Below, piece after piece: positions 8,307 to 12,051 of a DNA stretch of 12,124 nt. The translations under genes and the position numbers were made by a program. The DNA is from Micrococcaceae bacterium (GTDB lineage: Bacteria > Actinomycetota > Actinomycetes > Actinomycetales > Micrococcaceae): NCBI GenBank assembly GCA_003486025.1, contig DNHA01000293.1, positions 2,526 to 14,649 of the forward strand, given 5' to 3'. Positions within the stretch are counted from its first letter, which is position 1. Every line of letters starts with the position of its first letter. The notes beneath the pieces are model-generated. The model saw only the letters and a list, made by a program, of their open reading frames with translations. It had not been told where the DNA came from and did no database searches.

Positions 8307-8346
8307 AGAGAAAAACGTAGAAAACATAAGTAGAAAGTGGGTGAAC

Positions 8347-9393
8347 ATGAACTATCCTTCGGACGGGAACGACACCATCCCTACCGATTTCGACGATGTT
8401 GTCCAGCAGGTCTCTACCGGTTCGCTGGCACACCAGAAAATTGACGAGCTGCTACGCGAGGCACACGAGCGTTATTCGGACGTAGACGATGGTTTGCTAG
8501 CCCACTACATCCCTATCCTTGGCCATGCGGACCCCGATCTATTCGCCATCGCCATGTCCCACGTGGGCGGCTCGGTGCACGAGGTCGGAGACTGCCAGCA
8601 CGAATTTTCCATTCAATCGATCGCCAAGATGTTCGTTTACGCGCTCGTGGTTCAGGAACACGGACGAGAAGTTGTCCGTGAACGCATCGGCGTGAATAAC
8701 ACCGGCATGCCGTTTAACTCCGTGATGGCGGTCGAGCTGAATAATGGGCACCCGATGAATCCGATGGTCAACGCCGGTGCGATCGCCACCACCGAGATGA
8801 TCCCGGGCCGTACCTCGGCTAAAAAATGGGAGAATGTCCGCGCCGGACTCTCCGCTTTCGCCGGACGCCAACTGACGCTGGATGACGACGTATATGCCTC
8901 TGAATCCGAATCCAATGAACGGAATAAAGCCGTAGGCCGGCTGCTCAAAAGCTACCGCCGCATCGAAGGCGACCCACTGGCCGCAGTGGATGTCTACACC
9001 CGGCAATGCTCGCTGAATGTCACCGCCTATGATCTCGCGGTCATGGGTGCGACGCTCGCCGATGGCGGCGTTAATCCCGTCACCGGCCAGCGCGTGGTGG
9101 ATGCGGACGTTTGCCGTGACACCTTGGCCGCCGTGGCCACGAGCGGTCTCTACGAGCACTCGGGGGATTGGCTGTTCGAGATCGGGATCCCGGCTAAGTC
9201 AGGTGTCTCCGGTGGCATCGTCGCTATAGCACCGGGCAAGGGCGCTATTGGCGCGTTCTCGCCACCATTGGATATTGCAGGCAACTCGGTGAAAGCGCAG
9301 TTGGCGATCGGGCACTTGTCGCGCGCCATGGGCCTGAACCTGTTTGCTTCGGCTCCGGAGAAGAGCCTGCTGTCGAAAGCCGGACGCGGGTAG
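8347..9393 (+). CDS. glsA: Glutaminase (serine-dependent, beta-lactamase-like fold)
   Basis: Converts L-glutamine to L-glutamate and ammonia in the cytoplasm; 348 residues, slightly longer than the usual roughly 310 because of about 20 extra N-terminal residues. The S-x-x-K pair is S91/K94 in FSIQSIAK. Substrate residues follow the family pattern: N142 in NPMVNAGAI, E186 and N193 in the ASE...RN segment, Y217 in VYTRQCSL, and Y269 before the PAKSGVSGG glycine-rich stretch. ATG at 8347 is preferred because AGAAAG is 9 bases upstream. An in-frame GTG at 8341 would add two residues and has only 3-base spacing. The gene stands alone, divergent from the thioesterase and convergent with the export operon. 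The leader region contains two stem-loops that may regulate it. Confidence 0.93.
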   Translation: MNYPSDGNDTIPTDFDDVVQQVSTGSLAHQKIDELLREAHERYSDVDDGLLAHYIPILGHADPDLFAIAMSHVGGSVHEVGDCQHEFSIQSIAKMFVYALVVQEHGREVVRERIGVNNTGMPFNSVMAVELNNGHPMNPMVNAGAIATTEMIPGRTSAKKWENVRAGLSAFAGRQLTLDDDVYASESESNERNKAVGRLLKSYRRIEGDPLAAVDVYTRQCSLNVTAYDLAVMGATLADGGVNPVTGQRVVDADVCRDTLAAVATSGLYEHSGDWLFEIGIPAKSGVSGGIVAIAPGKGAIGAFSPPLDIAGNSVKAQLAIGHLSRAMGLNLFASAPEKSLLSKAGRG

Positions 9394-9442: not shown

Positions 9443-9958
9443 TTAGCGACACTTCATATAAACGTTAACGATGATTATGCCGACACTGGTGGCCGCTGCT
9501 GTGGACGCAGTTCCGGTCCATGTGCTGTTTTTGACTTTGGCGGTAACAGTGAAGGTCACGCCCAGCGACACGACGCTGAGCCCCGAAGCTGTGTATATGA
9601 ACGAGGTGTCACTGGTAGTCTTCGTACCGCTACTGGTAAATAAACCGGCCTCCTTCCAAGTGACTACATATTCCAGTGGCACGCCTTCTAAATTAGGAGG
9701 GCGATTCCACGTCAAACGGACCTGCCCCTCGCTAAGTAAGCCTGTTCCCAAGATTGATCTGCTGTCGTCGCAAGTAATAACGCCCAACGAACCAATGCTT
9801 ACTGTGGAGAAGGACGCCGAAGCGTAGGAATTATCTGTCCACGAAGCCTCTGTCTTGGCGAAGCGTTCTGAATTGAGCCCGAGTATCATGGCACTACTCA
9901 AAAATAGGACAGTAAATCCTAAAAGGTGTCGACGGAAGCGCCTTGACGGTTTTTCCAT
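9443..9958 (-). CDS. Secreted protein with SipW-type signal and fibronectin-III-like domain
   Basis: 171 residues, predicted exported. A basic N terminus (R6-R10) precedes a hydrophobic segment at about 12-28. The mature start ASWTDNSYASASF at 38-50 has the W-T-D and Phe pattern of substrates cleaved by SipW-like signal peptidases. Residues about 72-158 read as one fibronectin-III-like beta sandwich, with VRLTW, YVVTWKEAG, then FTVTAKV near the end. C63 and C170 flank the domain and could form a disulfide. The ATG overlaps the stop of the signal peptidase gene by one base, implying translational coupling and that this protein is its client. There is no anchor motif, so it may be released or polymerised. 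The exact function is not known to me. Local GC is lower than in the catabolic genes. Confidence 0.8.
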   Translation of the reverse strand: MEKPSRRFRRHLLGFTVLFLSSAMILGLNSERFAKTEASWTDNSYASASFSTVSIGSLGVITCDDSRSILGTGLLSEGQVRLTWNRPPNLEGVPLEYVVTWKEAGLFTSSGTKTTSDTSFIYTASGLSVVSLGVTFTVTAKVKNSTWTGTASTAAATSVGIIIVNVYMKCR

Positions 9959-11211
9959 CAGGGTTTTACCCGTTTACGCCCGTGATGCAGTGTTGCGCCA
10001 ACCGCGGTTAAAATTCCCCCGGCGATGACGAGCCACTGCCAGTTGCCTATGCCTGTGTCGGACAAGTGGAATTGGTCTTGCCGTTCTTCATTCGGATGCT
10101 TAGGAGACCTTGGAGGAGTCATGGACAGAACTTCTCCCGATCCGGAGGCTGAAATGCGAATATTCGACCCACTATCTCCGCCTGAATCGTGCAATGCATT
10201 TTTGGAAATTGTGCCTGTGATCAACAGTCGGTGGCGTTCTGCGGCAGAGAAGGTAACCAGATGCTGAGGGGCATCGCTGGATCTTTCTTGTAAGGTGCGA
10301 GCGCTGGAGTTTTTTATGAGAGTCCTCGCGCCGTCTGGACACCCTAATGCCGGGCTGGTCCCCGGAATCACGGGACAATCGACAACGGTGAAAGTCAGAA
10401 GATCAGAGGGATTTTCTTGTGGGCTTCCTACACTGAGCGACAGATCAATAGAGCCTGGTTCTGGTGCGTCTGCCCAGACGTCGATGCTCCAGACTGCGGA
10501 GTCTCCAGGACTTAGATTTTGCATTGTTAGGTAGTCAGCTGTCGATTCGATGCTCAGGTAGTCACCTGTGACGAGGTTTGCGCTCGATAGGTCGGTGGAC
10601 GAAGCAGAAGAGTTCAGCAACATGGGTGCGAGTAAGAACATGGGAAGCGCTACGGACAGGTTCGGCGGATGCGTTAGATCCCCCATCTCTTCGTCTGAGC
10701 GGCGTGGCCAGAAAGCCCACACAACCAGTGCCGTTGCGCCCAGGGTGAGGCCCCCTATTACCTTTGGGTTGCTAAACCATTGGATCACCGGGGCTATGGC
10801 CGGAACCGAAAAGAGTACGCGTTTGACAGTGGGGACCGCATAAGGTGCGGCATCAAGAGATTCGTTGGCGTCGCCCTTCATGGTAAAGGTTGCAAAACCG
10901 GTTGAATCGTCGACATCGAGTATTTCGACCACGCGATGGGTTACGGGTAGGATGGCGTGCTTTTGCTCGACGGTCACCACATCGTCGACGGCAATTTGGG
11001 CTGCAGGAATCTCTCGAACGAATGCGATCGAGCCAGCTGTGATCGTTGGACTCATCGAGCCGGTCCGGAACATCATGATGGAAATTTGGAAGAAGACTCC
11101 AAGAACCACTAGCACGATGCACAGCGACCTTGCGACTGCCAGGAGCGACAAAATTTGGTCACCAATTCGGGATGCGGCTGTGCGCCTTGTACTGGTCCTT
11201 TCATTGCTCAT
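9958..11211 (-). CDS. SipW/ER-type signal peptidase I fused to a TasA-like domain and sortase-like anchor
   Basis: Membrane protease that removes signal peptides from a dedicated client set; 417 residues, roughly twice a plain SipW. Hydrophobic helix 1 is at about 26-46. Catalytic S52 is in TGSMSPT, and H92 in THRV replaces the Lys of ordinary bacterial enzymes, as in SipW and ER/archaeal types. D114 (KGDAN) and D120 are candidate third residues. Helix 2 at about 151-168 is followed by WPRR, a cytoplasmic signature. Helix 3 at about 184-200 leads into a 180-residue outer domain. Its early part (DYLSIESTADYL, NLSPGD) resembles TasA/camelysin proteins. The C terminus has LSDTG at 383-387, helix 4 and RKRVKP, a cell-wall sorting layout. 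Positive-inside rules fit this topology. ATG at 11211 has only a weak GAAAG site. It lies between two probable clients in one operon. Confidence 0.88.
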   Translation of the reverse strand: MSNERTSTRRTAASRIGDQILSLLAVARSLCIVLVVLGVFFQISIMMFRTGSMSPTITAGSIAFVREIPAAQIAVDDVVTVEQKHAILPVTHRVVEILDVDDSTGFATFTMKGDANESLDAAPYAVPTVKRVLFSVPAIAPVIQWFSNPKVIGGLTLGATALVVWAFWPRRSDEEMGDLTHPPNLSVALPMFLLAPMLLNSSASSTDLSSANLVTGDYLSIESTADYLTMQNLSPGDSAVWSIDVWADAPEPGSIDLSLSVGSPQENPSDLLTFTVVDCPVIPGTSPALGCPDGARTLIKNSSARTLQERSSDAPQHLVTFSAAERHRLLITGTISKNALHDSGGDSGSNIRISASGSGEVLSMTPPRSPKHPNEERQDQFHLSDTGIGNWQWLVIAGGILTAVGATLHHGRKRVKP

Positions 11212-11330
11212 GGGTGGGCTTTCATAGTGGTCTCTTATCCGCGGGAAGTAGTGCCTACCGGGCGTCGTTGAGTCGAGTTTACTTATCTGGGGTCAATCCC
11301 AAGCAACTGGACTTCACCGTCATCGCGATT

Positions 11331-11346
11331 GGACCAGGGTTGGCCC
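11331..11346 (-). other. Small stem-loop between the first client and the signal peptidase
   Basis: On the minus-strand RNA, GGGCCA pairs with UGGUCC (one G-U pair) around ACCC. It lies 30 bases past the client stop and 119 bases before the peptidase start. With no T tract it is at most a weak attenuator or RNA-stability element. Confidence 0.22.
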
Positions 11347-11376
11347 GAAAAGATGAAAGTGAATTCAATGGTCGAC

Positions 11377-11997
11377 CTAACCGACGGAAGTGGTAGTGAA
11401 GTTCCATTGAGCGGTGGCTGTTGCTCCCTCGGTCAGCGTATTGTCTGCGGTCACCAGGAAGCAGAGATTCACAGGTGTTCCTGCGACAGCCTCGGTCCCC
11501 ATTGCTAGGTTGAAGCTGGCTGTACCTGCCACCGCATCCAACGCAGTTCCTGCGGGGATAATTTCCGTACCCGTGACGTCATTGTCACACGTTGCGAAAT
11601 CGGCAATCGAGAGGATTTGGTAGGTCAGCGCTCCTTCAGCTGTTCCCTCTCCCGCAGATGATGTTAGTGTCACGGTGGCATTGTAGGTAGTACCTGCACC
11701 GATCCGCATTGCATAAGGCATGGCAATTGTAGTTTCAGGGCTTAGATTATCGGCTCCGGCAAGTTCGACCGTCAGATCGGCCGCCGCGCCTGAAGTTTCA
11801 TGTTCGAAATATTCTGTGCCGTCGGTGGTTCCTTGGACGTTGAAAGAACCGGAGTTAAACGTCCCACCTACCCATTCTTGATCGGTCCACGCTGCCAATG
11901 TCACGGCTGTACCGATACCGAGGACAAGCCCACCGGCTAGCAAAGCTTTGACCTTGCGCGATTTTTGGCTTGGACGAGAAGGGCTACTTACGGCCAT
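11377..11997 (-). CDS. SipW-dependent-type exported protein, TasA/camelysin-like
   Basis: 206 residues, predicted exported and a likely major client of the neighbouring signal peptidase. The basic stretch KSRKVK (12-17) and hydrophobic core 18-34 precede LAAWTDQEWVGGTFNSGSF. This is the characteristic alternate signal of actinobacterial SipW-cognate proteins, with probable cleavage near A36. The mature part is Thr/Ser/Ala/Gly-rich and beta-strand-like. An NLSPETT segment at 84-90 matches the N-L-x-P-G/E-x region of TasA-type domains, and C137 and C179 may form a disulfide. The start at 11997 is chosen because TAAGGAG is 6 bases upstream; the frame extends to 12039 without support. First gene of the minus-strand operon and with the best ribosome site, consistent with high expression of a structural subunit (inference). 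It resembles the family often annotated as alternate signal-mediated exported protein. Confidence 0.86.
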   Translation of the reverse strand: MAVSSPSRPSQKSRKVKALLAGGLVLGIGTAVTLAAWTDQEWVGGTFNSGSFNVQGTTDGTEYFEHETSGAAADLTVELAGADNLSPETTIAMPYAMRIGAGTTYNATVTLTSSAGEGTAEGALTYQILSIADFATCDNDVTGTEIIPAGTALDAVAGTASFNLAMGTEAVAGTPVNLCFLVTADNTLTEGATATAQWNFTTTSVG

Positions 11998-12003
11998 GGT
12001 TGG

Positions 12004-12010
12004 CTCCTTA
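12004..12010 (-). promoter_or_regulatory. Strong Shine-Dalgarno for the TasA-like client
   Basis: TAAGGAG on the minus strand, 6 bases before the ATG at 11997. It decides the start against the longer frame beginning at 12039. Confidence 0.7.
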
Positions 12011-12051
12011 GAAGCGATGATGAACACCCGAGAGGGCATGATTGTTCTTAA

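Follow-up and report, generated by a model that had tools for sequence, protein, structure and literature searches.

A signal peptidase of the SipW type that is continuous, in a single open reading frame (ORF), with an outer domain of predicted TasA-like fold was found in a 12,124-nucleotide stretch of DNA from a Micrococcaceae bacterium (contig DNHA01000293.1 of assembly GCA_003486025.1; hereafter, the window). The fused gene lies between two genes whose products resemble SipW clients, and in related loci the outer domain is either fused to the peptidase or encoded separately nearby. It is proposed, with a probability of roughly 0.55, that the locus is a SipW/TasA-type fibre operon in which a TasA-like subunit, anchored to the wall as a base or cap, is linked to sipW. 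Cleavage of the fused protein, its anchoring by sortase, the formation of a fibre and a base or cap role are inferred from the conserved architecture, the split counterparts, the motifs of relatives, the operon context and the predicted folds set out below.

Four hydrophobic segments can be recognised from the sequence of the fused protein, at residues ~23–47, 151–168, 185–199 and 391–410. A charged linker of variable sequence separates the second from the third, and the third reads LSVALPMFLLAPMLL. An earlier note on this DNA had given the coordinates of the ORF, its catalytic residues and the motifs DYLSIESTADYL, NLSPGD and NSSASS, and all were found in their places. The layout that it described, with two further hydrophobic segments and an outer domain following the SipW/endoplasmic reticulum (ER)-type catalytic domain, was borne out and is conserved in homologues. 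The features of the fused gene are:

9958..11211, minus strand: fused ORF with an ATG start, 417 residues, comprising an ER/SipW-type signal peptidase, a third hydrophobic segment, a beta-sandwich outer domain and a sorting-signal-like C-terminus (from the ORF, a profile match, homologues and genome loci)
10774..11145, minus strand: signal peptidase I domain of ER/SipW type, residues 23–146, with the first hydrophobic segment at ~23–47 (TIGR02228, SEC11C/SEC11A)
11056..11058, minus strand: catalytic Ser52, nearly invariant, aligned with GSM of SEC11C
10936..10938, minus strand: catalytic His92, invariant (SEC11C alignment)
10870..10872, minus strand: catalytic Asp114, invariant (SEC11C alignment)
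10708..10761, minus strand: second hydrophobic segment, residues ~151–168, with the invariant WAFWP at its end (homologue alignment)
10615..10659, minus strand: third hydrophobic segment, residues 185–199 (15 residues), the counterpart of the signal peptide of stand-alone outer genes (split loci, survey of AxA motifs)
10603..10614, minus strand: NSSA, residues 200–203, candidate cleavage site without AxA (sequence)
10060..10602, minus strand: outer domain as modelled, residues 204–384, about ten strands, invariant Cys279 and Cys291, predicted TasA-like beta sandwich (alignment, model, structure and profile comparison)
9961..10065, minus strand: sorting-signal-like C-terminus, residues 383–417, with LSDTG, a hydrophobic stretch and a basic tail, a degenerate LPXTG signal (motif in relatives)

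The linker of the window protein also holds an ATG (EEMGDL) ahead of the third segment. A separately started outer domain arising from such an internal start was set aside, as methionine is present in just 9 of 50 fused linkers.

The catalytic part is a normal SipW/ER-type domain, as had been claimed. TIGR02228 (sigpep_I_arch, the NCBIfam model of ER/archaeal-type signal peptidase I) matches residues 23–146 with 54.8 bits, above its curated cut-off of 51.85. Among solved chains, SEC11C and SEC11A are the closest in sequence, and S52, H92 and D114 fall in register with the SEC11C boxes. An alignment of 33 homologues shows no variation at H92 or D114 and almost none at S52, the homologue P0112 being a fragment without an N-terminus. 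The Bacillus SipW equivalog model NF046067 gave only a partial match of 42.8 bits, against a cut-off of 190. On these sequence comparisons, the peptidase belongs with the ER/SipW-type signal peptidases and not with the Bacillus SipW equivalog. The setting agrees with this placement, in that an adjoining client carries a SipW-dependent signal peptide and the operon is kept in relatives. Some relatives hold several such enzymes: in Arthrobacter crystallopoietes (L047:2922-9179), three ORFs matching signal peptidases lie within ~6 kb, one of them under the TIGR02228 cut-off, and the genome of locus L078 has six TIGR02228 matches, five above the cut-off.

The fusion is widely conserved. A protein search limited to 0.55–1.75 times the query length, in which stand-alone peptidases could not turn up because of that limit, returned 432 homologues at E ≤ 1e-3; the 120 listed all contain both the peptidase and the outer domain, as judged with profiles built from 33 family members. 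Named genera among the homologues include Glutamicibacter, Yaniella, Enteractinococcus, Brevibacterium and Brachybacterium, and the host group of the operon is taken to be Actinomycetota, mainly the order Micrococcales. A separate contig of 3,112 bases encodes a 99% identical protein of 417 residues. An assembly error as the source of the fusion is ruled out by this near-identical protein on another contig, by the 120 homologues and by the fused loci in genomes.

A single-sequence scan of genome contigs found no relative. With a profile, and with one genome for each species, 224 were found; these were ranked by how closely they resembled the fused query, and the best 80 loci were kept. Peptidase and outer domain form one ORF in 50 of these 80 loci, and a further 24 encode the outer domain in an ORF of its own close to sipW, so that it is fused or nearby in 74 altogether; it was not found in the remaining 6. 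In 22 of the 24 split loci the separate gene lies downstream of sipW, and in 19 its in-frame start codon falls inside a 4-bp overlap with the sipW stop codon. The separate ORF lies upstream of sipW at L035:7890-8597 and L071:6278-7438. At L032, L036, L049 and L053, an ORF like the downstream client seems to follow sipW directly, with no outer domain between; because such SipW operons exist, the outer domain can be regarded as a removable module. Two Dietzia loci in which it is missing, L036 and L065, each have a similar 209-residue ORF (MRIRHAAT.L...; L036:1616-2245 and L065:10182-10811) near sipW. An ORF at L022:2325-4106 that seemingly joins peptidase, outer domain and downstream client was set aside as a probable artefact, as it crosses undetermined bases (X).

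A tree of the peptidase part was built from 80 rows by a quick method, with support from the Shimodaira–Hasegawa-like approximate likelihood ratio test (SH-aLRT) only, and 27 of its 77 inner branches are open. The loci L044 and L045 are near-identical, and L045 was dropped from the tree and from the survey of AxA motifs described below. With domainless loci left out, parsimony counts five changes between the fused and split states, while the starred branches force at least two; the number and direction of the fusion events are therefore unsure. The clade of the window sits on a starred branch and comprises 23 rows, 22 of them fused and one a Dietzia row on a long branch.

Structure prediction gave the outer domain a TasA-like beta-sandwich fold. 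The best Foldseek match of the model in the PDB is the TasA fibre 8aur (E 8.4e-5), and a strand at model residues 6–12 lies directly before the part that aligns with TasA residues 43–233. The resemblance to TasA that had been suggested from the sequence therefore held for the predicted fold. Sequence profiles point the same way. The outer-domain alignments A2 and A5 cover 43 of the 50 fused and all 24 stand-alone loci, A2 with 22 homologous proteins in addition, and the client alignment A3 holds the window and 71 client rows, picked partly by their signal-peptide motif. Compared profile to profile, the outer domain and the upstream client scored 34.4, where the highest of 150 column shuffles reached 15.6, and 12 of 12 comparisons between subsets, which overlap, scored above all 40 of their shuffles. 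Outer-domain profiles set against those of the peptidase or the downstream gene exceeded all shuffles in 0 of 8 comparisons. It is probable from these profiles that the outer domain and the fibre-type clients share a distant homology.

Strict membership of the TasA/camelysin family did not hold. A Pfam search with the outer domain of the window found no family at E ≤ 0.1, and so no match to Peptidase_M73 (camelysin). The domain also differs from TasA and camelysin in having no match to the SipW-type signal peptide among the proteins tested and, by eye, in missing the aromatic-Asp N-terminus (AWTD) of clients; family membership was rejected on the absence of the signal and of a Pfam match. Profile searches of PDB sequences with the outer domain and with the clients turned up no meaningful relative: one search matched only SEC11, through full-length rows, and weak matches to fluorescent proteins (with two cytokine-receptor rows) and to photosystem proteins were dismissed as chance. 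When the stand-alone outer protein of locus L067 was the query, a protein search reached only 13 proteins, of 184–214 residues, the sole named one being a 'hypothetical protein'.

These relationships bear on two other views of what the outer domain does. In one, it is an MSCRAMM-type adhesin that is carried along in the operon without contributing to the assembly of fibres. MSCRAMM N-domains, such as those of ClfA, FnBPA and SdrD, belong to multi-domain staphylococcal adhesins and are not known to be joined to a signal peptidase. The linkage to sipW in 74 of 80 loci and the probable distant homology to fibre-type clients both argue against such an adhesin, which is considered unlikely here. 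In the other, the outer domain serves the peptidase as a subunit that regulates it or recruits its substrates, comparable to SPC22/23, the lumenal beta-sandwich subunit of the eukaryotic signal peptidase complex. Linkage to an ER-type peptidase is in keeping with such a subunit, and the position of the outer sandwich behind a hydrophobic segment may be read as a similar layout. A sorting signal would, however, remove the outer domain from the enzyme, and a peptidase subunit sits poorly with the 6 of 80 loci in which no outer domain was found. The outer-domain profile had two matches among PDB sequences, the better at E 1 and neither of the SPC22/23 family; SPC22/23 is also not among the best 50 structure-comparison rows listed for the domain, which excludes nothing. 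Overall, a role of this kind appears highly improbable.

At the C-terminus, LSDTG, a hydrophobic stretch and the basic GRKRVKP stand where a sortase sorting signal would be expected. The motif L[P/A/S]x[T/S]G is found at the end of 119 of the 120 listed homologues (71 LPxTG, 44 LAxTG, 2 LAxSG and 2 LSxTG), compared with about 4 of 120 shuffled tails, and for this reason the C-terminus is best read as a sorting signal. Of nine relatives tested with the LPXTG_anchor model, four scored above its cut-off and a fifth scored at it. Sortase and LepB were searched for in the genomes of 16 of the 80 loci, and a sortase was found in all 16. The anchor of the fused protein is probably an LPXTG-type sortase signal, judging by these motifs; the earlier note had placed an anchor there and had overlooked its probable nature as a sorting signal.

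The split loci also indicate what the third hydrophobic segment may be. The signal peptides with which stand-alone outer proteins open are ordinary ones of the Sec type, such as ...APAWA-APTTEV and ...APAHA-AVV (cleavage points by eye), so that the third segment of the fusion is the counterpart of a signal peptide. The signal peptide or segment ends in an AxA motif in 22 of 24 stand-alone proteins, 24 of 28 other fused proteins and 14 of 22 fused proteins of the window's clade, counts that carry no chance control. No TIGR04088 match (SipW-dependent signal peptide) at E ≤ 1 was found among six of the 24 stand-alone outer proteins tested, nor in the fused window protein. LepB-type peptidases are encoded in all 16 genomes searched. 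Because the stand-alone forms bear ordinary AxA signal peptides, release at the third segment is more likely to be the work of the housekeeping LepB than of SipW itself.

Self-cutting, in which S52 of the SipW active site cleaves its own or a neighbouring chain after the third segment, had been the central proposal of the earlier note. The small residues of NSSASS do follow the segment, and the outer domain is TasA-like in its predicted fold, as a SipW substrate might be. Self-cutting would also find some support in the AW[A/G] ending of 10 of the 24 stand-alone signal peptides (for example at L055, L056 and L073), as tryptophan at P2 is reported, in an excerpt of PMC10269814, to hinder LepB on TasA. 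Set against this are the AxA-type signal peptides of the stand-alone forms, without a SipW-type profile match in those tested, and the presence of LepB-type enzymes in every genome searched. NSSASS itself does not provide the ordinary AxA in the window. Self-cutting is accordingly disfavoured and regarded as unlikely. As a separate observation, AW[A/G] ends might mark SipW processing in Microbacterium.

The preferred reading, in which the outer domain is a wall-anchored base or cap, assigns the operon the order of client or clients, sipW, outer domain and further client. SipW would trim the clients, which would then polymerise by donor-strand exchange in the manner of TasA. The outer domain, a presumed distant TasA-like relative, would be co-produced with SipW through an overlapping gene or a fusion, and this linkage would favour joint synthesis and nearness. 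It would be exported through the third hydrophobic segment and freed there by a signal peptidase, after which sortase could fix it to peptidoglycan at its C-terminal LPXTG-like motif. Bound to the wall, it may serve as a fibre base or cap, in a role comparable to the one that TapA or CapP has in Bacillus.

Three observations weigh against this scheme. The window protein is without AxA at its third segment, as are 8 of the 22 fused proteins of its clade; LPXTG models find no match in the window protein, whose LSDTG is degenerate; and the AW[A/G] ends described above speak against release by LepB. The partial loss of AxA in the clade and the degenerate sorting motif of the window leave room for a permanently tethered form. 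In such a form, the fusion would remain uncut and the outer domain would stay at the membrane with SipW, as a cradle that receives the donor strand of each client upon cleavage. Retention of the fusion in 22 of the 23 rows of the window's clade is consistent with an uncut cradle, and the strand at model residues 6–12 appears to sit where TasA has its donor strand. Such tethering is nevertheless difficult to reconcile with a sorting motif kept in 119 of 120 homologues and with a domain that is unfused in 24 of 80 loci. Furthermore, the third segment is short in the clade (median 15 residues, range 12–35, compared with 33 and 18 for the first and second segments, by a crude measure), and in this it resembles a signal peptide more than an anchor. 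An uncut cradle is possible and, on balance, doubtful.

A related and still more speculative view is that the peptidase carries its own acceptor for fibre assembly, with the TasA-like domain capturing the client donor strand freed by SipW and so replacing a chaperone. The nascent fibre may afterwards be passed on to the cell wall by sortase. Though rather unlikely, such an acceptor would, if real, couple cleavage, nucleation and wall anchoring in one polypeptide. The interpretation offered in the earlier note is supported for the TasA-like fold and the fusion, and disfavoured for self-cutting.

The genes on either side of the fused ORF are:

11377..12039, minus strand: upstream gene, 220 residues, with a SipW-dependent-type signal peptide (TIGR04088) and a predicted TasA/type-1-pilin-like sandwich; probable fibre subunit and client (TIGR04088, model)
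9443..9958, minus strand: downstream gene, 171 residues, with a SipW-like N-terminus (EASWTD) and a weak fn3 match; probable further client (its start overlaps the stop of the fused gene, TGATG)

Both neighbours look like SipW-type clients, which, like the existence elsewhere of the outer domain as a gene of its own, goes beyond what had been noted before. The upstream protein matches TIGR04088 with 38.8 bits against a cut-off of 19, and the same model matches all 72 upstream rows, in whose selection a motif of this type had played a part. The camelysin Pfam family has no match in the upstream protein of the window and matches 5 of the 72 upstream family rows weakly. The model of the upstream client, in which the N-terminal segment is of low confidence, also has 8aur as its best Foldseek match (E 2.3e-3). 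VIA gave 8.1 for FimG and 7.4 for TasA, with 7ueg and 7pnb among its rows. The downstream protein has no NCBIfam match, TIGR04088 included; 5 of 30 downstream family rows match that model. The downstream alignment A4 comprises the window and 29 of 33 downstream rows, for which position and motif were the basis of selection.

In 77 of the 80 loci, ORFs could be picked as upstream clients, with two such ORFs in 62 of those 77, and an ORF like the downstream gene is present in 71 of the 80. The window has a single upstream client before the fused gene, with its start near the window edge, and most relatives have two. The gap between this client and the fused gene is 165 bp (11212–11376). An ordinary glutaminase A gene (NF009020, 451.7 bits) adjoins the operon at 8341–9393 on the plus strand.

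The tapA-sipW-tasA operon of Bacillus subtilis likewise places an ER-type signal peptidase beside clients with SipW-type signal peptides, and the upstream client of the window is TasA-like by predicted fold. Points in common with TasA/camelysin fibre subunits and archaeal bundling pili are 8aur, the best Foldseek match of both the outer domain and the upstream client, and the VIA rows 7ueg and 7pnb of the upstream client. Unlike Bacillus SipW, the window peptidase is fused to a TasA-like domain with a sorting-signal-like end. According to part of PMC10151520, tapA of B. subtilis also overlaps sipW. In TasA filaments, each subunit completes the following one with a strand from its N-terminus (excerpt of PMC9674648), and TapA, an accessory protein with an immunoglobulin (Ig) domain that starts or chaperones these filaments, is thought to donate the first strand (excerpts of PMC10151520 and PMC9674648). 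In Bacillus cereus, CapP is located at the cell wall among other places and directs CalY/TasA filaments independently of sortase, as given in part of PMC13082335. The outer domain is perhaps a functional analogue of TapA or CapP, likened to them by described role and not by sequence. It differs from both in that TapA and CapP are encoded by genes of their own, not joined to SipW, and from the sortase-independent CapP system in the sorting motif that its relatives carry.

No description of the fusion or of the actinobacterial operon was found in openly licensed PubMed Central papers, by titles and the starts of abstracts among the matches listed. To our knowledge, the start and cell attachment of TasA-type fibres have been little explored outside Bacillus. 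The relatives of the window protein show both forms, a separate sortase-tagged protein whose gene overlaps sipW and a fusion, and each ties a probably wall-anchored domain to the peptidase. With both forms in existence, the idea of a wall-bound fibre base can be tested directly in harmless actinobacteria. Such a base would link SipW/TasA fibres and sortase anchoring, surface systems that are usually treated apart.
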